Below are positions 36,204 to 48,780 of a stretch of DNA of 53,805 nucleotides, piece by piece. The notes under the pieces were generated by a model, which made no database searches, was not told the origin of the DNA, and saw only the letters and a program-made list of their open reading frames with translations. The stretch covers positions 1-53,805 of the forward strand of contig NZ_AMPG01000009.1 of assembly GCF_000299415.1 (NCBI RefSeq). Reading direction: 5' to 3'. The first letter of the stretch is position 1, and every line of letters starts with the position of its first letter. Made by a program: the position numbers and the translations under genes. Source of the stretch: Candidatus Microthrix parvicella Bio17-1 (GTDB lineage Bacteria > Actinomycetota > Acidimicrobiia > Acidimicrobiales > Microtrichaceae).

Positions 36204-37458
36204 TGCCGAGAAGTCATCCGGCCAGTGTTCCTGAGGGTTTCGGGCCGAAGTCGAGACCGGTATCGCCGACGACTCGTGGACCTGCTTCCATCGCTCGCAC
36301 GCCTCGTTCTCACCCGAATCGGCTGGGTCTTCGCCAGCGGCGACTCCCGAGACGCGGATCCTTGCGCTCCGCCACCACGTCTTCGTGTTGCAACGCCAGA
36401 TCGACCGGCCAAGGTTCAACGAAACCGACCGCACGATCCTTGCCCTCCTCAGCAGCACGATGGATCGGACGCGCCGGGCGGCGACGTTCCTGATTGTCCG
36501 ACCCGAAACCGTGCTGCGATGGCATCGTCGACTTGTCGCACGGCACTGGACCCAACCGCCCACACCCAAACGCGGACGCCCACCGATCGACCCCGACCTG
36601 AGACGTCTGATCATCGGCCTCGCCAACGAAAATCCCGACTGGGGGTACCGGCGTATCCACGGGGAACTCGCACGGCTCGGTCACAACTCGCCGCGTCGAC
36701 CGTCTGGAAGGTTCTCCGTGCCGCTGGCATTGACCCGACACGCGACCGAACCGGGCCGTCGTGGTCGGAGTTCATCCATTCACAGTCGAAAACAATTCTG
36801 GCTACCGACTTCGCTTGTGTCGACACCGCGCTGCTTCGCCGATTCCACGTTCTGTTCGTCATCGAGGTCGCCACACGGCGTGTGCACTTGGCAGGGATCA
36901 CCCCCAACCCCACCGGCTCCTGGGCCACCCAAGCCGCCCGCAACCTGACGATGAAGCTCGGCGATCGTCACCCGTTCCGATTCTTGATTCGCGATGGTGC
37001 TGGCCAGTTCACCCGATCCTTCGACGCAGTCCTCGGCGGCTCCGGAATCACCGCAATCAGAACACCGCCGCGGTCACCTCAAGCCAACGCGTTGGCCGAA
37101 CGATGGGTGCGCACGCTCCGTCACGAATTCCTCGACCGAACCATCATCTGGAACGAGCGACAGCTCCGATCCCTGCTCGAGGAATACGTCGAGCACTACA
37201 ACAGCCATCGCCCGCACCGAGGACTCCACCAACGGGCACCCAACGACACCGGACGTCACCCCGATCGGCATAGACCAACCGATCGAACGTCACCCCACCT
37301 GCGCCGGGCTGATCAACGAATACCGAACCGCCGCCTGAACCGCTCCCTGGTCAAGCAGCAACACCCCAAGCGCCGGCTTCAACGTGCCCGCCAACACCAG
37401 CAGCATCACCGAATCAGGCAGAAAGGCCGGCGAATAGGGACCGGACGACTTCTCGAAG
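36204..37458 (+). mobile_element. IS481-like element copy B
   Basis: Left end TGCCGAGAAGTCATCC (36204-36219) and right end GGACGACTTCTCG (37443-37455), about 1255 bp. It is uninterrupted and served as the reference for reconstructing copy A. The stretch 36045-36203 has no gene, only a GC-rich region with a tRNA-like T-arm sequence. Confidence 0.75.
36225..37428 (+). pseudogene. IS481-like transposase with two frameshifts
   Basis: Compared with copy A, the frame changes near 36355 (SRDA / ILALRHH) and again near 36690 (LARLGHN / LAASTVW). The catalytic segments ATDFACVDTALL, LIRDGAGQFTRSF and SPQANALAERW are intact in the last frame. The element end carries the HYNSHRPHRGLHQRAPND tail missing from copy A. 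Inactive unless frameshifting occurs at both sites. Confidence 0.8.
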
Positions 37459-37538
37459 CCTCTTTGTGTCAAGGGGTTCTTTCGGGGTGATGGTGGGCGC
37501 GTTCGGTGGGGTCCCTGGCGGAGGTGCCGGGGTCGGTC

Positions 37539-38690
37539 CTATCGTGATTGTCGGGTCCGGGAAGTGACTTGTCCGAAGCGCCGGTGTTCAGGATTCAAGC
37601 CGGCCACGCTGGATTGCAGAGTCGTTCCTGGTTGTCCTCCCGGACCCACCTGCCGTTCAGCTCGCGGCTGCCCGTTTCGCGTCGGCGACGAGGTGGCTGT
37701 AGACCCGATCAGAGATCCGTCGTTTTTCAACGAGCGGGTCGCTTCCTTGTTGGATCTACCTTCGGCGATTTTGCGGTCGTAGAACACTCGGCCTTCGTCT
37801 CCGGAGCGGATCTGAACGACAGCGGCGATGTGGATCGCGAAGTTGAGCTGCCGGTTCCCCCGCGGGTTGAGCCGGTGACGGACCTTGCCGCCCGAAGACG
37901 CTTCGATCGGCGCTGTCGCGTTGTAGGTCGCGAAGTGTGCCCGGGTCGGGAACCGGCCGATGTTCCCGGTGTAGCCGATGATCGTCGCCGCGCAGATCGG
38001 GCCGATCCCGACGATGTCACACAAGGTGGTTCCCGACGTGACGACGGCCGTCTCGATCCGTTGCTTTGATGGCTTCAACAACAGGTCGAGGCGCGCCACG
38101 TCGTCGAGGAGTTCACCGGCGATCAGCACCCGGGAACGTGCCACCTCGTCGGTCACTTCGACCCTCTTGAGGAGCTCGATCGCCTTCTGTGGTGTGGCTT
38201 TTGGCCCGATCCCGCCCGCTGACAGTTCGGTCGTCAGAGCTGAGAGCCGAACGATCAGCTTGGCTCGGAGCTGCGCTGTGTCGCGGTGGCGTTTCACCAA
38301 CAGGCGCAACACCTGGGCGTGATCATCTGTGGTGACCCGACAGAGCCGGTCCGACCGCATCGCTGCGATCGCGACCGAGCGGGCGTCGTTGGGGTCGTTC
38401 TTCTGGGAACGTCCCGATCCCAACACCCTCACCCTCGAGGCCAGCAGCGGTGGCACGTCAAACACGGTCTCCCCAGCGGCGACAAGCTGTTGGGCCAACA
38501 GATAGCCGAGTCCGCGGGCGGACTCGACCGCCCACTCCGGGCCGTCGAACTGTCCCGCCCAGGAACGCAACCGCGTCGTCTGTGCTTTCGAGGCTCGCAG
38601 GGTGAACTCGTCGAGGACCCGTTCGTCGCCGTCGATCGCGACCGCTGTGTGGGTCGCTTTGTGAGGATCGATTCCGATCATGATGGTCAT
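37539..38690 (-). CDS. IS110-family DEDD recombinase, frameshifted C-terminus
   Basis: A 383-residue recombinase with the RuvC-like DEDD residues (IGIDPHKATHTAVAID, AVESARGLGYLL, KNDPNDARSVAIAA) and the C-terminal Transposase_20 part (DIVGIGPICAATIIGYTG, NATAPIEASSGGKVRHRLNPRGNRQLN) with its serine. After NKEATRSLK the frame goes to unrelated residues. One frame over the DNA encodes RRISDRVYSHLVADAKRAA, the usual end, so a base was gained or lost in the A-run at about 37725. IS110 recombinases are guided by a bridge RNA from the non-coding end. Activity of this copy is uncertain. Confidence 0.85.
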   Translation of the reverse strand: MTIMIGIDPHKATHTAVAIDGDERVLDEFTLRASKAQTTRLRSWAGQFDGPEWAVESARGLGYLLAQQLVAAGETVFDVPPLLASRVRVLGSGRSQKNDPNDARSVAIAAMRSDRLCRVTTDDHAQVLRLLVKRHRDTAQLRAKLIVRLSALTTELSAGGIGPKATPQKAIELLKRVEVTDEVARSRVLIAGELLDDVARLDLLLKPSKQRIETAVVTSGTTLCDIVGIGPICAATIIGYTGNIGRFPTRAHFATYNATAPIEASSGGKVRHRLNPRGNRQLNFAIHIAAVVQIRSGDEGRVFYDRKIAEGRSNKEATRSLKNDGSLIGSTATSSPTRNGQPRAERQVGPGGQPGTTLQSSVAGLNPEHRRFGQVTSRTRQSR

Positions 38691-39154: not shown

Positions 39155-39820
39155 TCAGTCGGGTACATCCAACAAGCATGCGCGATACGAAGCTATCGAT
39201 CCAGCGATGATCAACGTTGAAAGGCCCAGGCAAACAGTGGGAAGTCCTGCGGACTCTCGAGATTCGAACGAGTTCAGAGTGCAGACGAACCAAGCGGCCG
39301 CAAGCGCGAGGGCGCGGAGGAGGCCCTGAATGCGTTCTAACGTTGCCGCAATCGCGTCTCGCGGTCTCTGGTCATATCCCATCTCCGAATGAAGATCCAT
39401 CCACCGCGCGAAGGCAAACTGCGAATCGCTGTCACAGCCTGTCAGCAGCACCGCAACTGGGTTACGACCACCGTCACCCGACGAGAATCCCGACTCAGCA
39501 GTCGCAATCTTGGCAATAGAAGCCCAGTTAGACAATGAAGCCAGTTTGGAAACCCACGCCGCTATTCCGGAAGAGAACGCTAGGGGGTACCAGAGCTCTA
39601 CCCAACCCGATACGTCGCTACTCAAATTCAGTTCTGAGAACTCGCTGAAGTCGCCTGCCACCACGACAGCGCTGCCGAGGACGAGCAGGACGAGTGTACG
39701 TCCTGCCCACCTTGCGCGTGGCGTCAACTCATCGAGCTTAGCAAAACAGATCCCACTCACATCACCTGAGCTCAGCCCTCCCCGACGCAACTCCTCAAAT
39801 ATCCGGTCAGCTCTAGACAT
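39155..39820 (-). CDS. Four-helix membrane protein, last gene of the type ISP operon
   Basis: A 221-residue protein with a short cytosolic-type N-terminus (MSRADRIFEELRRGGLS) and four hydrophobic segments: TLVLLVLGSAVVVAGDF, YPLAFSSGIAAWVSKL, LLRALALAAAWFVCTL, and GLSTLIIAGSIASYRA. Between helices two and three is a polar domain of about 60 residues (GCDSDSQFAFARWMDLHSEM). ATG is 9 nt after the stop of the gene before. No family recognised. GC content is low for the window. It belongs to the operon that begins with the type ISP enzyme at 48780, now interrupted twice. Confidence 0.65.
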   Translation of the reverse strand: MSRADRIFEELRRGGLSSGDVSGICFAKLDELTPRARWAGRTLVLLVLGSAVVVAGDFSEFSELNLSSDVSGWVELWYPLAFSSGIAAWVSKLASLSNWASIAKIATAESGFSSGDGGRNPVAVLLTGCDSDSQFAFARWMDLHSEMGYDQRPRDAIAATLERIQGLLRALALAAAWFVCTLNSFESRESAGLPTVCLGLSTLIIAGSIASYRACLLDVPD

Positions 39821-39829
39821 GGTCGAACC

Positions 39830-40549
39830 TCACGAGTCGTCATCGTCGTGCGGCCTGGTCGTCGGCGACAACGCCAGCGGCGTATGCGGCAGAGCGAGCA
39901 CCTGCTCGGTCCTATCCAACGATTGCGCATGCAACCATCCCGCCGCAGCCGAGTCTCGGATGTCCGTCCTTACGACAGTCGCCTGTTGGGTGATTGCGAT
40001 GGCCATCTTCCGAGGTTCGGTCCCAACGACGCGGTCGATGTCCTTGCGGCCCGCCAACGCCTCGTTGATTCGATAGACTCCAAGCCCCCATTCAGGCGGA
40101 CATCCCTCAACTTCACAGTTCAAACCCACTCCCGGCCCATCATAGAACTCAACAGCGCTAGGCCTTTCGCGATCGTCCATGCTCACTAAGACGACCGCGG
40201 CATTGTCTATGCCCAAAATAGCACTAGTTTGAGCAGGCAATTCCCCAAATGCTGACTTCAGGACTTTGACGAGTTCGCTCCATAGCACCCACTTGGCTTC
40301 TCCTTTCCAACGCTCCGGAAATCGGCCCAGAAACACGGAGAAGTAGCTCCCAGGCTGCTCCGAAACAACGCGAGTTAGATGCACCCCCACGCTGCTGAGA
40401 CAATCACGTAGGAGTAGAACTGCGTCCTCTTGGACTTGCATGTTTGCACTCGAAAGGACGTCGATCAGGACCATGTGCTCGCCTGGCCTCGCTCGGCGAG
40501 CTCTCGGCAGCCATCCAACCATGGAATCCTCGTCCTCAGGGTCCGCCAT
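39830..40549 (-). CDS. Hypothetical protein, third gene of the type ISP operon
   Basis: A 239-residue soluble protein from ATG 40549; the longer frame upstream belongs to the ISAzo13 element. It begins MADPEDEDSMVGWLPRARRA, has a mixed helix/strand body (EHMVLIDVLSSANMQVQEDAVLLLRDC, SYFSVFLGRFPERWKG, AILGIDNAAVVLVSMDDRE), and ends in a run of Asp. No motif I know. Removing the ISAzo13 element and one CGC places this ATG 4 nt after the stop of the upstream membrane gene, so the two were consecutive operon genes. Confidence 0.6.
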   Translation of the reverse strand: MADPEDEDSMVGWLPRARRARPGEHMVLIDVLSSANMQVQEDAVLLLRDCLSSVGVHLTRVVSEQPGSYFSVFLGRFPERWKGEAKWVLWSELVKVLKSAFGELPAQTSAILGIDNAAVVLVSMDDRERPSAVEFYDGPGVGLNCEVEGCPPEWGLGVYRINEALAGRKDIDRVVGTEPRKMAIAITQQATVVRTDIRDSAAAGWLHAQSLDRTEQVLALPHTPLALSPTTRPHDDDDS

Positions 40550-40563
40550 GAGATTAGACGCGC

Positions 40564-41797
40564 GGTGTAGTTTGGGCGTGTGGAGATCACCGATGAGGCG
40601 TTGAAGGACTGTTTGGGGGCGGTTCTGCCGCATCTGGATGAGCGGCAGCGTCGCTTGTGTGCGGGTGCTGTGGCAGAGATGGTCGGTCGTGGCGGGCGCA
40701 CGAAGGTCGCCAAGTTGACTGGTATGTCCCGTTCGACGGTGATCAAGGGAGCAAACGAGATCGTGGCCGGCGCGGAGGTGAGCGACTGGGTCCGCGAAGA
40801 GGGCGCTGGTGACAAACCCGCGATCGAGAAACAGCCCGGCTTGTGGGAAGCGATCGAGGAGTTGGTGTCGCCAACGACACGGGGTCATCCGATGTCGGCG
40901 TTGCGGTGGACCCTGAAGTCGACCTACGAACTGTCCCGAGAGGTCAAAGCTCAGGGGTTCGTTGCGTCAGCAGAGCTGGTCCGGCGCCTGTTGGCCCAGA
41001 ACGGCTATTCGTTGCAGGCCCCATCGAAGCAGGCCGAAGGGTCAACGAACCCCGACCGGGACGGCCAGTTCCACTATCTGGGTGGCCTCGTCGACGCGTT
41101 CTTGGACTCGGGTGATCCGGTGCTGTCGGTGGACACCAAGAAGAAGGAACTGTTGGGCAACAAGTCCAACGGTGGCACCGAATATCAGCCCAAAGGCGAA
41201 CCGGTCCGGACCGACGTCCACGACTTCCCCGACCCGGCCTTGGGCAAAGCAATCCCCTACGGGGTCTACGACGTTGCGAACAACGAAGGTTGGGTATCGG
41301 TCGGTGACACAGCCGACACCTCCGAGTTCGCCGTTGCGGCGATTGAGAAGTGGTGGGACACCCTCGGCAAACACAAGTTCCCCAACGCGACCCGACTGTT
41401 GATCACCGCCGATTGTGGCGGGTCGAACGGGTACCGGGTCCGAGCTTGGAAATGGCATCTCGCCCGACTCGCCGAACGAACGGGCCTGGACATCACGGTG
41501 TGTCACTACCCGCCCGGCACCTCGAAATGGAACAAGATCGAGCATCGGATGTTCAGTTTCATCACGATCAACTGGCGAGGCCGCCCTCTCACCAACATCC
41601 GCACCGTCGTCGAGCTGATCTCAGCGACGACCACCCAAGGCGGGCTCACCATCCAGGCCGCCTACGACGCCCACGTCTACCCCAAAGGCGTCAAGATCAC
41701 CGACGCTCAGTTCAACGCAATACCGATCACCAAACATGACTGGCACGGCGACTGGAACTACACGATTAGCCACACACCCCAAACGTCCAACTAAACC
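40564..41797 (+). mobile_element. ISAzo13-family element
   Basis: The ends read GGTGTAGTTTGGGCGT and, inward from the other side, GGTTTAGTTGGACGT. It is 1234 bp, flanked by CGC at 40561-40563 and 41798-41800 (3-bp duplication). It landed in the last two codons of the 179-residue membrane-protein gene; the new sequence happens to preserve the same ending, Arg-Val-stop. Confidence 0.78.
40580..41794 (+). CDS. ISAzo13-family transposase
   Basis: A 404-residue transposase from GTG 40580. N-terminal helix-turn-helix (AKLTGMSRSTVIKGANEI), then a DDE-type core: VLSVDTKKKELLGN (Asp), LLITADCGGSNGYR (Asp) and SKWNKIEHRMFS (Glu). The order VDTKKKE...DCGGSN...KWNKIEHR is characteristic of the ISAzo13 group. 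Appears intact. Confidence 0.9.
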   Translation: MEITDEALKDCLGAVLPHLDERQRRLCAGAVAEMVGRGGRTKVAKLTGMSRSTVIKGANEIVAGAEVSDWVREEGAGDKPAIEKQPGLWEAIEELVSPTTRGHPMSALRWTLKSTYELSREVKAQGFVASAELVRRLLAQNGYSLQAPSKQAEGSTNPDRDGQFHYLGGLVDAFLDSGDPVLSVDTKKKELLGNKSNGGTEYQPKGEPVRTDVHDFPDPALGKAIPYGVYDVANNEGWVSVGDTADTSEFAVAAIEKWWDTLGKHKFPNATRLLITADCGGSNGYRVRAWKWHLARLAERTGLDITVCHYPPGTSKWNKIEHRMFSFITINWRGRPLTNIRTVVELISATTTQGGLTIQAAYDAHVYPKGVKITDAQFNAIPITKHDWHGDWNYTISHTPQTSN

Positions 41798-42330
41798 CGC
41801 GGCGGGCCCTCAGTATGGTCCAGGTGGAACCCGAGCAACGCGGCAAAGCTGGATTCAGTCGACCGGGGAAGCAAGAGTAGACTCACCACAATTACAGCCC
41901 CAGCCAGAAGGATCGCTCCGAAGGCAACCGATGCTTGGCTGAAATTATACAGGTAAGGCAACCTAACTCGACCCTCTTCCGCATATATGTGTACAGTTAC
42001 CCCTGCGAGAATCGCTGGAAGAAGGTAGGGAAGAAGGCCTCGGAGAAACCTCCTTAATGATCTTCTTGCGATCGAGGAAGATCTCCGCAGCAAGTCGTAG
42101 GTCGAACTAACTTGCGCAGATTCGTCGTCTTGACTAGCTGTTTGGCAAACCAAGAACGCTATGGATGTGGCCAGTCCAAAGGCCACGGTGACGGGAGCCA
42201 AGTTGGGCGCCCCAGCAAAGGCCGTTGAAGCCACAAGCCAGAAAGCCAACGCTGCAGCGCTTCCAGCGATCCCGGCCATGGCAGCCCGGAGGCGCACTGA
42301 AATCATTCTTGATTTTCTGGCTGGAGTCAT
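41791..42330 (-). CDS. Membrane protein coupled to the type ISP enzyme gene
   Basis: A 179-residue protein with about four membrane segments (IAGSAAALAFWLVASTAFAG, APVTVAFGLATSIAFLVC, GLLPYLLPAILAGVTVHI, AFGAILLAGAVIVVSLLLL) and a basic middle loop (RRSSSIARRSLRRFLRG). Its ATG overlaps the restriction enzyme stop as ATGA, so both are made from one transcript. No family recognised. The last codons were rewritten by the ISAzo13 insertion, but the protein end is unchanged. A membrane protein translationally coupled to a type ISP enzyme is not something I know to be described. Confidence 0.7.
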   Translation of the reverse strand: MTPARKSRMISVRLRAAMAGIAGSAAALAFWLVASTAFAGAPNLAPVTVAFGLATSIAFLVCQTASQDDESAQVSSTYDLLRRSSSIARRSLRRFLRGLLPYLLPAILAGVTVHIYAEEGRVRLPYLYNFSQASVAFGAILLAGAVIVVSLLLLPRSTESSFAALLGFHLDHTEGPPRV

Positions 42331-44759
42331 GAGGTTCGACCTAGTTGTGATGATGCGGGAAAAAGGGAAGGTAAGGATTCGATGACGTCGAGAGTTTGGA
42401 GTGAGAGGGTGATGACGCGGCCGATGAGGTCGAGGATGTATCGGGGGTCGTCATGTTCGTCGGCCCAGTCGTTGGGGTCGTTGACGATGCCGGAGGCCTT
42501 GTCGGTCTTGATGTAGTAGCGATCGATGATCCAGTCGACGCCGCTGCGGGTTCCGAGCTTGTAGTCGTGGGCTCGTTCGGGGATGCCGGTCAGAGTGAGG
42601 TGCGGGTTGTAGATCAGCTGGGTGCGGTCCGGGACCTTCTTGCCAGTCTTGGGGTCAGTCACCTTGGGGTAACGCATCTTCTTGTCGCCGACGCGGAGGA
42701 CCGACGGGTCGGTGGTGGGGTCGGCGCCGTGTTGCCACTGCTCTTCGAGCGGGTAGGGCTCGACGGTTTCGTAGCCGATGTGGAGTCCCATGAGTGCTGC
42801 GCCAGCGTCTCGGTAGGCGTCGAAGGAGGCCCGGTTGCCGGGCAGCGGAACGCGGGGTGCTTCCTTCTTGAGGTTCGATTCGTACCGCTCCCGGAACTCT
42901 GGCGAGTGGAGGGCGCCGTAGACGAAGTGGAAAACGTCGTCGTCGTCGATGTCGGGCCCAAGGGTTACTTGGAAGCGGCGGACGGCATCGGGGTTGAGGT
43001 TGGAGACCTTCCTCCAGCCGGACTCGCCGCCAAAGAGACTGTCAGCGTCGTCAGGCTCCTCGTACCGCCAACGGGCCAAGAACGATGTCGCGTCAGAGCC
43101 GATCAGATGGAGACAAGGGATCGTGTCCGTGGCTGTGACGCCAAATGGGGATTTTGAACCCTGCGTGACAATGCTGATTCCCCGGTTCGTCGCCTCTGGC
43201 GTGGGGTAGAGCTTCGGTAGCTGGTAGGTGTCGTTGTTGACGGTTCTATCGAACGCGACACGCTGCTTTAGGAACGGCCGATACAGGCTGGTGCGGAGCA
43301 TGTCGTCGGTCAGTTCGTATCGCTGGCCTTTCGCCATGCGAGCGAAATCACCTCGGTCCCAGCTGTGTTTCGTGTCATCTCGGTCGGCGAACGCGGCGGC
43401 CCCCTCCTTGGTGTCGGCCACCCCCTCAGTCGCCACGGCACGGAGGTAGTCGCCAACCTGAGAGTTGTAGTGGCTGATCATGCGCTCGACGTTGGCCGAG
43501 AGTTTCGATTGAGAGGAGTTGTAAACCCACGCGTCCCTCGCTGTGACGAGACCGAGTGTCTTGGTGTGGAAGATGCCGCCAACTCCCGCTAGCGGGATGT
43601 GCATGTCGTATGTGGCATCACGCTGGTTGATCCAGTCGCCGGAGGAATTCGGCTGGACTGAGTCCCAAAGGAGGTTGGCAACGGTGGCACGTTTGACCAG
43701 TTCAAGCTTGGCCTGCCGGTTGAGGTAGTCGCCGATGTCGTGATAGTGGATTTGTGCGCCGCCGGTGGGGGGTGATCCCGGTTGGCGGATAAGGAGGGTG
43801 ATGGCCACGGTGTTGCGGCTTCCCGATCCGAACACCTTCCCGCCTTCGCGTCGTGATTGTTCGCCGGACGTTCGTTGGTTGCCGCGTAGGTTGTAGATGT
43901 AGATGTGGTGGAATTCGTCGGCGAGGGTGAGGCGGATCCCATCGCCTGAGTTGGAATCAATCCAGCCGCCGTTGGAGACGAAGCCGACGATTCCGCCGTC
44001 GGGGGAGGCTTGGATGCGGTTGGATGCCCAACGGATGGCACGGATATACGAGTCGTAGAGCTTGGACTTCAACGTCGCTGAAGATCGCTCGGCGTACGTC
44101 GATGCGATCGATGCATCGAGGGTGGGATAGTCGAGGTTCTGATTGTCGTCATTCTGGGACGTCTGCCCGACGGAGTACGGCGGGTTGCCGACGATCACTC
44201 TGATGTCGAGCGTCTTCTGTTTGTCGGCCCGGGCGTTGTTGCGGGGGAAGAACAGTTCGTCCATTGGGTCCCCTGCTTCGGAGAGCTGGAACGTGTCGGT
44301 GAGCACGATCCCATCGAACGGCATGTACGCGTTGCCTTGAGCGAGGGCGTTGTAGGTGGTCTCAATGTTGATTGCTGCGATGTAGTACGCGAACAGGACG
44401 ATCTCGTTGGCGTGGAGCTCCTCCCGGTACTTGCGGTCGAGGTCTTCGGGTTGTATCAGGCCGGAGTCGAGCAAACGGGAGATGAAGGTGCCGGTCCCTG
44501 TAAACGGGTCGAGAACGTGCACGCCTTCGTCAGAGATGGTGGTTCCGTCGAAGTGCTTGACGAGGAGATCGTTGACGGAGCGGTTGATGAAGTCGACGAT
44601 CTCGACAGGGGTGTAGACGATACCGAGTGCTTGGACAGTCTTAGCCTGGATCCACCGGTGGGGTTTGCGTGTGACATGAGTTGAATGTTCCTCAACGCGA
44701 CAAGTGCCCCCTTGGGGTGGGAAACTTCGAGTGTTCAAAGCACAAAGATTTCCACGCAC
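42327..44759 (-). pseudogene. Type ISP restriction-modification enzyme, C-terminal half (methyltransferase and TRD)
   Basis: The open frame covers the second half of a single-chain type ISP enzyme. Sequence from KTVQALGIVYTPVEIVDFINRS onward is native; the first ~40 residues come from the IS1380 element. The N6-adenine methyltransferase has motif I VLDPFTGTGTFISRLL and motif IV VIVGNPPYSVGQ. The last ~450 residues should be the target recognition part. The frame joins exactly to the N-terminal half (46255-48780) when the IS and one CTTAG are removed: KALPK-TVQALG. A start inside the IS end could still give a free methyltransferase. Confidence 0.85.
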
Positions 44760-46254
44760 GAGGAGGCACTGCCGGTGAGCAGTCTGGTCTATGGCAACGG
44801 TCCGATCAAGATCGACTTTGACGATCCGAAACTGTCTGGTGATGGCGGGCTGATGTTGGTCTCAGCCATGTTCGAACGGTTGGGTGTCGCCGAGACCGCA
44901 CAGCGGTGGGTGAACGTCCAAGGGGATGGGTCGGCGAACGTCGGACCGAAGCTGGAAACGCTGGTCGCCACGATGATCGCGGGTGGTTCCCACATCGACC
45001 ACGCCAACCGGCTCCGCGCTGGTGCTACCAACCAGCTGTTGGCTCATCACACGTATGCGCCGTCCACGTTGGGCACGTGGCTTCGGTGTTTCGACAAAGT
45101 GTCGGTCACCCAGCTCGATCTGCTCGCGGGTGAGTTGTTCGTCCGGGCGTGGAACGCCGGGCTGGCCCCGTGGCGTCACGGCACCGTCGTCGTCGATTTC
45201 GACTCGACGATCGCCCGGGTGTTCTCCTCCGCGAAGGAAGGCGCCGCCTACGGCTACACCAAAGAGTTGGGCTATCACCCGCTGGTCGCCACGATCGCCG
45301 ACACCGGGGAGATCGTCGCGTGTGGGAACCGTGACGGCAACGCCCACACCGCTGCCGGTTCGCGTCGGATGTTGTCGATCGTTGTTGGTCGGCTTCGGCG
45401 GGCGGGGCACGTCGGACCGATCGAGATCCGGGCCGATTCGGGGTTCTGGTCCGAGAAGTTGATCGACCGGTGTGTTCACCTGAATGTCGGGTATTCGGTG
45501 ACGGTGAAACGAACTTCGCGGATGTGGGACCTGATCAACACGGTTCCCGAGGACCGTTGGGAGCCAATCGTCTATCCGGCCGGTGTTGCCCAGGTCGCCC
45601 AGATCTTCGATGACAAGTGGGGGCGGATCATCTGCCGTCGGGTCCGTAACACCGCCGACGGTGCGCTCTTTGATACGTGGGAACACCACGCGTTCATCAC
45701 CTCGAACGGGCTCCCAACCGTCGAGGCCGACGCCTACCATCGTGCCCACGCGATCGTGGAGTTGAACATCCGTGATCTCAAAGCCGCTGGGCTCGCCCAC
45801 ATCCCGTCGGCAGACCGTCACGCCAACGCCGCGTGGGTGATCTGCGCGGGGATCGCCCACAACATCGCCCGCTGGGCGACCAACTTCGACACCGACGGGT
45901 TCCCGGTCCGACAACGCACCACCCTCGCCACGATCCGGCACCTGTACATCGCGTTCGCGGTCCGGGTGTGTCGCCCACAAGGCAAACCGAGGATCTCCGG
46001 ACCTCTCGACTGGCCCGCAGCCGAATGGATCCAAGCATGCAACTCCTCGATCGCGGCCATGCCCCGCTGGTCGGGATAGCTCCCACCCTGGCGGCCCCGA
46101 ACCCGCCATACAACACCGACCGTCCGGACACACCCCACCCTGCCACGATCCTGGTTTCGGCGCGCCCCGAACCACAGAAACCACACCAAACCATGAATGG
46201 GCGTCAGTCAAACGTCACAATCCGCGACTGTTATCAAACACCGGTGGATCCAGG
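44645..46254 (+). mobile_element. IS1380-family element, 5-bp target duplication
   Basis: Perfect 16-bp inverted ends CCTGGATCCACCGGTG (44645-44660 and 46239-46254), flanked by CTTAG on both sides (44640-44644, 46255-46259). It is 1610 bp, inserted into the coding sequence of the type ISP enzyme. Confidence 0.92.
44775..46079 (+). CDS. IS1380-family transposase
   Basis: A 434-residue transposase starting VSSLVYGNGPIKIDFDDPKL at GTG 44775, chosen for AGGAGG 9 nt upstream; the frame is open further back. DDE residues are in VVDFDSTIARVFS (Asp), IRADSGFWSEKL (Asp) and HAIVELNIRDLKAAGL (Glu), typical of IS1380. No damage seen, so it may still be mobile. Confidence 0.9.
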   Translation: MSSLVYGNGPIKIDFDDPKLSGDGGLMLVSAMFERLGVAETAQRWVNVQGDGSANVGPKLETLVATMIAGGSHIDHANRLRAGATNQLLAHHTYAPSTLGTWLRCFDKVSVTQLDLLAGELFVRAWNAGLAPWRHGTVVVDFDSTIARVFSSAKEGAAYGYTKELGYHPLVATIADTGEIVACGNRDGNAHTAAGSRRMLSIVVGRLRRAGHVGPIEIRADSGFWSEKLIDRCVHLNVGYSVTVKRTSRMWDLINTVPEDRWEPIVYPAGVAQVAQIFDDKWGRIICRRVRNTADGALFDTWEHHAFITSNGLPTVEADAYHRAHAIVELNIRDLKAAGLAHIPSADRHANAAWVICAGIAHNIARWATNFDTDGFPVRQRTTLATIRHLYIAFAVRVCRPQGKPRISGPLDWPAAEWIQACNSSIAAMPRWSG

Positions 46255-48780
46255 CTTAGGGAGGGCCTTGCGGAAGAACTGTTCGTAGAGCTCGGTGATG
46301 ACGCGTTGGCGGCCGTCGGCGGTGTCGATCCCGCCGATGAGCATGCGGATGTGTTCGTAGAACCCTTCGAGCGCTGCGGTTTCGGCAGCGAGGTTGGCGT
46401 CATCGAGGGTGGCGATCATGGTGTCCATCACTTGGGACACGGGGTTGGCGGCGGTGAACTGGTCGTGGCCGAAGAGCGCTTCGAACACTGGCCGGGTGAT
46501 GAGGTGCTGGGAGAGCATCCCGATGGCGTCTTCGCGGGTGACGGCATCGTTGAGGTTGTTCTGGAGGGCGGCGAGGAACTCGTCGAACCGGGCGACAGCC
46601 TCGGGGTTTTGGTCGGGATGGGCAAGGAGTCCGCGGATGCGAGTCTCCTGGGCTGCGGCGATCTTGGCGATGTCGTCGGCCCAGTTGGCCATGTACTTGC
46701 GGTTGCCGACCTTCTCCACGATCCGGGCGTAGAGGGCGTCGTGCCACTCGTGAAGGTCCGGGAGTTCGAGCTGGGTGCCTTTGGCTGATTCGGTGGTCTT
46801 GAGCTTGTCGCCGGGGTTGGCAGGATCGTCGCCGCCGTTGCCGAGACCGATCCCGATCACCCGGATCTTCGATGACGTCTTGTTGATGTCGATCTTGTTG
46901 ATCTCGGCTTCGAGGCGCTCGTCGTGGGACCGGAGCGCTTGGAGGACCTGCCAGACCACCTTGTAGCTCTTCTGATCGCGAAGGGCGTCCTCGGGCGCGA
47001 CACCGGCCGGGATCCCGACCGGCAAGATCACATACCCAAAGTCCTTGCCCTCTGCGAGGCGCATCACCCTGCCGACCGCCTGAACGACGTCGACGATGCT
47101 CTTCCGGGCCTGGAGGAACAGCACCGCGTCCAACGCTGGTACATCGACCCCTTCGGTGAGGCACCGGGCGTTCGACAGCACTCGACAAACGCCCTGGCCC
47201 GGTGGTTCCTCCAACCAGGCAATCGCTTCGGACCGGACCTTCACGTTGGTCTTGCCGTCAACGTGCTGGGCTTCGACCTTCACTGCGTTGCGGTGCTTGC
47301 GGTCCTCGAACACCTCGTTGGCAATCTCGGGGAACGCATCGGTGAACGCCTTCGACTGCTTGATGGTCGACGAGAACGCGACCGCCCTCCTCATCGGAAC
47401 GTCGTCGTCATCGAACTGCGGTCCGCGTTTGGACAGGCCATGCCAACAGCCCACGATCCGCGACACATCGTCCAAGCCGAGCTCACCGTCGGTCTTGGCG
47501 AGCTGGCGTTGGAACGCCGACGACACGGCGTCCTCATTGACCGCCAACACGATGACCTTGTAGTCACACAACAGGCCTTGAGCGACCGCTTCGCCAAAAG
47601 CGAGTTCGTGAAAGATCGGCCCGAACGTCGACACGTCGTCCATCGACGCCACCAACACGTCGCCCTCGGCCGCCTTGGCCTTGGCCTGGTCCCCATACAC
47701 CCGGGGTGTTGCGGTCATATACAGCCGCTTAGCGGCGTTCACGTACTCATTGAAATGGACCTTGGTAAACGTCGACTGGTCGTCGATGTCGGAGAAGGCG
47801 CCGGTGGTGCGGTGGGCTTCGTCGCAGATCACCAGATCGAACTGACCGATCCCGTCCTCCTGGGCCTGGGTGATCACATCAATCGACTGGTAGGTGGAGA
47901 ACACCACCGTCATGTTGCTGTCAGTAGCCCGCGCATTGACCGCGTCCAAGAGCGCCTGGGTGTTCGTGGACGCCGGGATCGACAGGTCGTTGGCCGACAT
48001 GTCCTCGTCGCTGCGCCGTTTTCCTGCGTGGGCGTCCGAGCAAACGGCGAACGTCGCCAGCGACACCTCAGCGTTGCTCGCCCACGCCTTCACTGACTGC
48101 GACAGCAGGTTGATCGACGGCACCAGGAACAGCACCGAGCCCCCGACACCCACCTGCTTCTCGGCCAAGCGAAGCGATGTGAGGGTCTTGCCGGTGCCGC
48201 ACGCCATGATTAGCTGCCCGCGATCCGCCGTCTCCAGCCCCGCCGTCACGTCGTCGATCGCGTCAACCTGGTGAGGGCGGAGCTTCAGCGGATCCTGAAG
48301 CGCCAACTCGGCTGGCTTCTCGATCCTGAACGAGTTCCAATCGAGAGCAGACTCCTCAAAGTCGGCCACCCGCCACATCGTCGTGTCCTTGGCGTGGCTA
48401 TCGAGGTTGACCTCCACCTTGGGGGACTCCGCCCCGGCCGTGGACACGATCATCCCCGAAGTGAACTCGGGCCGACCCAACATCCCTACAAACGTCGCAA
48501 CGTTCGGCCACGACAACGACGCCGTCGGTGCATAAAACTTGCACTGGATCGCCACCAAATCCCCGGTGCCCCGCTCACGAGCCACCAAATCGATCCCAGT
48601 GTCGGCCGCCCCAGCACGGCCAGGCCAGTCCATCCACGACCACACCGCATCGAACCGCTCCGCCCACACCGGATCAGTCTGAAAATACGCCTCGCAAAAC
48701 TCCTCGAACCGGCGACCCTTCGCGGCCTGCGACTTCGCCGCCCCCTCGAACTCCTCCAACAACTGCCGGAACGTCGTCAC
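46234..48780 (-). pseudogene. Type ISP restriction-modification enzyme, N-terminal half (nuclease and helicase)
   Basis: 848 residues from GTG 48780 (GGAG upstream). It opens with an Mrr-like PD-(D/E)xK nuclease: RRFEEFCEAYF, then DTGIDLVARERGTGDLVAIQCKFY (Asp and Gln-x-Lys). A superfamily 2 helicase follows: Walker A MACGTGKTLTS, DEAH-type ICDEAHRTTG, MTATPR, and QAVGRVMRLAEG. The alpha-helical coupler comes after. The native frame ends at 46255 in YEQFFRKALPK, and the IS adds PGSTGV-stop. Joined to the downstream half it makes a 1612-residue protein, matching LlaBIII/LlaGI-type enzymes (about 1580). Those move along DNA and cut unmodified phage DNA in one polypeptide. Cleavage should be lost, or at least uncoupled from site recognition. 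Confidence 0.87.

Follow-up and report, generated by a model that had tools for sequence, protein, structure and literature searches.

A type ISP restriction enzyme gene split by a recent insertion and its three orphan neighbours in Candidatus Microthrix parvicella Bio17-1

Organization of the locus

The window, i.e., the whole stretch of 53,805 nucleotides analysed here (contig NZ_AMPG01000009.1 of Candidatus Microthrix parvicella Bio17-1), harbors a type ISP restriction enzyme gene in two pieces, three orphan genes and two insertion sequences (IS) between positions 39155 and 48780. The enzyme belongs to a known class and is decayed here, and the genes next to it are orphans. Its features are as follows:

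39155-39820, minus strand: orphan gene 3, 221 aa, probable membrane protein
39830-40549, minus strand: orphan gene 2, 239 aa, predicted soluble protein, low-confidence ferredoxin-like model
40564-41797, plus strand: ISAzo13-type element (most likely ends), transposase 40580-41794 (Pfam DDE_Tnp_ISAZ013, 1.6e-130), CGC duplication
41794-42330, minus strand: orphan gene 1, 179 aa, four predicted membrane helices, original stop codon beyond the IS
42327-44639, minus strand: type ISP enzyme, C half, methyltransferase and specificity domain (Pfam, junction alignment)
44640-44644: target duplication CTTAG, left copy
44645-46254, plus strand: IS1380-type element, 1610 bp, transposase 44685-46079 on the plus strand (Pfam DDE_Tnp_1_4, 2.3e-37)
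46255-46259: target duplication CTTAG, right copy
46261-48780, minus strand: type ISP enzyme, N half, 840 aa, GTG start, Mrr-type nuclease, SF2 helicase-like ATPase and coupler (Pfam, PADLOC)

The name IS1380 is taken from a preliminary description of this DNA and presumably applies to the element at 44645-46254. An IS110-family transposase (37539-38690, Pfam) and an integrase-type transposase ORF recognised by eye (36225-37490) are located just past the orphan genes, which marks the region as rich in transposable elements.

Restoration of the type ISP enzyme gene

The N half matches the Pfam families ISP_coupler (4.5e-42), Mrr_cat_2 (1.1e-33), ResIII (8.6e-27) and Helicase_C as well as REase_MTase_IIG and REase_MTase_I in PADLOC. 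The C half matches Type_ISP_C (1e-88), and its match to the methyltransferase family Eco57I (5.6e-5) lies with 23.7 bits just under the Pfam cut-off of 25.3. Omission of the IS1380-type element and one CTTAG copy yields a 1612-aa ORF that starts with GTG, reads KALPK-TVQALG across the junction and contains the complete type ISP domain set in order (nuclease, helicase, coupler, methyltransferase, specificity). The junction was compared at the protein level with 82 related loci, namely, the best 80 of 196 relatives from a genome scan for the enzyme and two others. It is covered by the alignment in 81 of them and free of gaps within 12 residues on either side in all 81. This agreement confirms the in-frame fusion to 1612 residues that the preliminary description had proposed, and documents that 46261-48780 and 42327-44639 are two halves of one type ISP gene.

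The insertion site of the IS1380-type element corresponds to the boundary between coupler and methyltransferase. The inverted ends of the element are CCTGGATCCACCGGTG, and a second copy of 1610 bp with 100% identity is present at C2:946617-948226, flanked on both sides by GTGAA. The identical copy with its own 5-bp duplication fixes the ends of the element and the length of the duplication well, and it indicates that the insertion happened recently. Judged from these features, the insertion is precise and recent. Here an IS with an identical copy elsewhere in the genome has cleanly and recently interrupted a type ISP gene at the border of two domains.

PMC4666363 presents type ISP enzymes as single polypeptides, in agreement with what the preliminary description states for LlaGI and LlaBIII. 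The restored enzyme shares with these two the Mrr nuclease, SF2 ATPase, coupler, methyltransferase and specificity domain in the same order (PMC4666363); the locus differs from them in the IS-split state of the enzyme and in the three orphan genes that follow in operon-like spacing. In the present state the enzyme chain consists of two pieces, which are most likely inactive, and restriction has most likely been lost. An in-frame GTG for the C half is present inside the IS; both halves could still be produced and form a split but working enzyme.

Other Type_ISP_C loci of relatives align only weakly and partially with the enzyme (about 23-38% identity; L168 does not align) and were left out of the set of relatives; they contain no match to the accessory genes at E <= 1. 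The only locus of the same family that resembles the C-terminal part of the enzyme (L007, 41%) has an enzyme gene cut by the contig start, and it lacks a downstream partner because the next gene is convergent. Elsewhere, the genome has two decayed remnants of N-terminal regions from related type ISP genes (identity of about 69% and 55-57%):

L159 10377-10681 (C1:858376-858680): decayed N-terminal fragment 1, beside a recombinase-like ORF
L160 6686-7045 (C7): decayed N-terminal fragment 2, beside a 292-aa ORF

The 292-aa ORF has by eye the look of a SLATT-type membrane protein, and no Pfam family matches it at E <= 0.001.

Placement of the ISAzo13-type element

The ISAzo13-type element is located at the stop of the 179-aa gene. 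Its flank is GC-rich, so that several placements of the ends are possible. Three of the six candidates lead to one and the same empty site with 1237 bases removed, two remove 1239 bases and one removes 1235. Removal of 1239 bases would extend the 179-aa gene to 208 aa, overlapping the second gene. Both inverted ends start in register at GG only with the placement 40564-41797; the ungapped end identity of this placement is 12/20 versus 13/20 for two others. With these ends and one CGC copy, the 179-aa gene ends in PPRV* and the successive gene spacings are -4, +4 and +9 nt. The excision with CGC that places the 239-residue gene 4 nt behind the membrane gene could be reproduced, and the spacing given in the preliminary description (ATGA overlap, 4 nt, 9 nt) holds for this placement; other placements shift the first stop. 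Restored junction and spacing together support its view of two IS insertions in an operon-like gene order. Elsewhere in the genome, only one ISAzo13-type copy was found, which is partial and 88% identical.

The three orphan genes

The ATGA of the 179-aa gene overlaps the stop codon of the ISP gene, the ATG of the 239-aa gene follows 4 nt after the 179-aa gene, and the ATG of the 221-aa gene 9 nt after the 239-aa gene. A hydropathy script predicts four membrane helices in the 179-aa and three in the 221-aa protein, to which a fourth can be added by eye, and both products are probably located in the membrane. The two proteins show no homology to each other. For each orphan ORF, its own frame has the highest score of the six, by a small margin for the 179-aa ORF (-0.230 versus -0.275). 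In shuffled sequences, the open length of the 179-aa gene was reached in 2/2000 cases and those of the 239- and 221-aa ORFs in 15/2000 and 30/2000; the lengths of the latter two are thus only moderately unusual. The codon use of the orphan genes is unlike that of the enzyme gene (GC3 of 0.55-0.64 versus 0.78-0.84), and they could be unrelated recent arrivals.

An exact 12-bp inverted repeat, TGAGGTTCGACC, is present at 39821-39832 (minus strand) and 42330-42341 (plus strand), directly preceding the start codons of the 221-aa and the 179-aa gene. If located on a single mRNA, the copies could base-pair with each other across the two start sites. The pair may have arisen by chance, since its 11-mer GAGGTTCGACC has 11 genomic occurrences, compared with 10 for the backward control.

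Searches for homologues of the orphan proteins

Pfam contained no match to the 239- and 221-aa proteins up to E 1 and only untrusted ones to the 179-aa protein (0.18 and 0.21), and none of the three proteins matched NCBIfam up to E 5. The 239-aa protein reached only Csx16 in PADLOC (0.026 and 0.048) and only values of 0.073 and 0.18 in PHROGs, which we do not trust. Orphan-protein matches were absent from plasmids (searches at E 0.01 and E 0.1) and phages (E 0.1), relatives were absent from viral contigs, and the PDB sequences contained no match to the 239- and 221-aa proteins. The scans of 84,980 genomes use exact 8-residue patterns, which detect close relatives only, and were run with the enzyme and the 239-aa protein as queries; for the latter, the sole orphan query, no such relative was found. 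With the same query, 98 related genomes from outside the genus contained no trustworthy homologue. Searches of 396 genomes of the phylum each, including the own one, returned weak matches at E 0.001-0.01: 11 belong to the 179-aa protein, and the 239- and 221-aa proteins have three each. Of the 17 matches, two were inspected; they lie in the frames of an epimerase-like and a PurL-like protein, as judged by eye, and were taken as noise.

For the best 80 of the 196 relatives of the enzyme gene, the flanks were searched over up to 10 kb, or less where contigs were small. They contained no orphan-protein match at E < 0.3, and the best foreign value was E 0.33. In L029, a match to the 239-aa protein (E 0.69) runs antisense to a frame of 492 residues and was discarded. 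Within the libraries and collections searched, the three orphan genes have no trustworthy homologue.

The motif order of the 239-aa protein resembles, by eye, that of class III cyclases. Pycsar has membrane effectors, and a Pycsar-like cyclic-nucleotide set could be imagined here: the 239-aa protein would be a degenerate class III cyclase and the two membrane proteins its effectors. The likeness is a soluble protein beside membrane proteins; the difference from Pycsar, a system of pyrimidine cyclase and receptor protein (PMC11224242), is that the tests for cyclase homology of the 239-aa protein gave no match. A profile comparison with 25 cyclase domains gave a probability of 0.7% (E 0.086) over 22 columns that are out of register with the motifs. 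The cyclase HMM scored -1.4 bits, a value reached by 144 of the 344 shuffles that were scored (500 made), and the unrelated 179-aa protein scored -1.1 with the same HMM. Structure models made without an alignment are of poor quality (pLDDT of 39.5 for the 239-aa and 39.9 for the 221-aa protein), too poor for a judgement on the fold of the 239-aa protein. Its model suggests a ferredoxin-like core, and the tied rows of VIA-align (Z 7.2-7.3) include human soluble adenylyl cyclase; but the rows of that low-confidence model are mostly common ferredoxin-like arrangements, headed by designed ferredoxin folds (Z 9.6), and Foldseek found no PDB match for it at E <= 0.001. The cyclase reading found no support in the profile comparison or in the HMM measured against shuffles, and we regard it as very improbable.

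Genes downstream of related type ISP enzymes

The comparative analysis comprised those 80 of the 82 given loci in which the enzyme stop is present and followed by at least 600 bases. A same-strand ORF starts -40 to +60 nt from the enzyme stop in 38/80 loci, and 33 of these 38 ORFs have at least 100 aa and are longer than any opposite-strand ORF. The Pfam scan covered 29 of the 33 partners; L040, L043, L044 and L050, look-alikes of L039 and L033, were left out. At E <= 0.001, 15/29 have a match, the one in L087 under its cut-off, and 14/29 have none. The genes close behind related type ISP enzymes are varied: among the families matched are Piwi, DNA_processg_A, OGG, GmrSD, AAA_13, AAA_15, SIR2_2 and YobI-ATPase, and further HNH, PIF1, NA37 (twice), DUF6883 and an ISL3 transposase.

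The count of 33/80 looked persuasive for a partner slot behind type ISP genes, an idea that was removed by the control. A tight downstream partner is present behind 35/81 type ISP ORFs and behind 140/376 control ORFs of the same loci (Fisher p = 0.32); the comparison identifies enzyme ORFs slightly differently, hence 35/81 instead of 33/80. Type ISP ORFs are thus not enriched in tight partners relative to control ORFs. In 5 of at most 82 loci (L048, L053, L057, L087, L100), the downstream chain includes a gene with at least two predicted membrane helices. Both counts together give no sign of a general membrane module associated with type ISP genes. The wider point is that tight neighbours downstream of a restriction gene are on their own no evidence of a functional module.

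Since 37% of the control ORFs have a tight partner, the position of the orphan genes is weak evidence of a defence role. Such a role is possible, the two lines of evidence that suggest it being position and predicted membrane helices; as a single instance, the locus lends it no statistical support. The orphan genes could instead be chance neighbours, i.e., three young or fast-evolving genes behind the enzyme gene that are unrelated to defence. This alternative is in accordance with the lack of a trustworthy homologue in the searches made, with a codon use unlike that of the adjoining genes and with the 140/376 control ORFs that have a tight partner by the same rule. Against it, the tandem order with its overlap and very short gaps suggests co-expression. 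We regard this alternative as unlikely.

Interpretation and comparison with known systems

The preferred reading, to which we assign a probability of about 70%, is that of a recently broken type ISP enzyme followed by a lineage-restricted cassette that is most likely cargo of a defence locus. The original locus would have encoded a complete single-chain enzyme (nuclease-translocase-coupler-methyltransferase-specificity domain) with the three lineage-restricted genes behind it, probably in the same transcription unit. The IS1380-type insertion at the coupler-methyltransferase border has split the enzyme, and the ISAzo13-type element has inserted at the end of the 179-aa gene. In the cassette, a predicted soluble protein is framed by two probable membrane proteins, a composition that purely by analogy makes a membrane-acting second line of defence its likeliest job. 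This second line need not depend on the enzyme. The three orphan genes are candidates for new defence proteins.

A closer tie between cassette and enzyme is conceivable. PrrC guards EcoPrrI by tRNA cleavage. In analogy to this pair, the three genes could represent a dedicated guardian that senses inhibition of the enzyme by phages and then damages the membrane. The ATGA overlap, the 4- and 9-nt spacing and the two probable membrane proteins are compatible with it, and PMC12707154 describes PrrC and PARIS as second layers of defence and hypothesises toxin-like accessory genes of restriction systems. The locus shares with PrrC/EcoPrrI and PARIS the idea of a second layer tied to a restriction locus; the difference is that no sequence relation was found. 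The preliminary description saw the three genes as partners of the enzyme in a backup or abortive module, to be checked by their recurrence downstream of type ISP genes. This proposal found no support: none of the 80 related loci carries a homologue of any orphan gene, so that the repeated linkage to a restriction system typical of a guardian is missing, close partners are not enriched, and membrane-gene chains are as rare as reported above. A guardian or abortive role of the orphan genes is possible by analogy, but the dedicated guardian appears quite improbable. Improbable, too, is the specific scenario of an own three-gene membrane module that kills or halts the cell once the type ISP enzyme is disabled and that is now being dismantled by the two IS. 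The literature matches listed include no type ISP operon with membrane genes, which does not prove that none has been described.

Two of the partner genes at related loci are worth recording in their own right. In a Tannerella MAG, an AAA_13 ATPase (L068 2432-4666, E 2.2e-176) is located 11 nt behind the type ISP gene. AAA_13 is presumably the family that holds PrrC and RloC, and this ATPase may be a more concrete guardian candidate for a type ISP enzyme. In a Bacteroidota MAG, the start of a gene for a Piwi-domain protein (L030 12277-14292, E 1.4e-9) overlaps the end of the type ISP gene by 4 nt.
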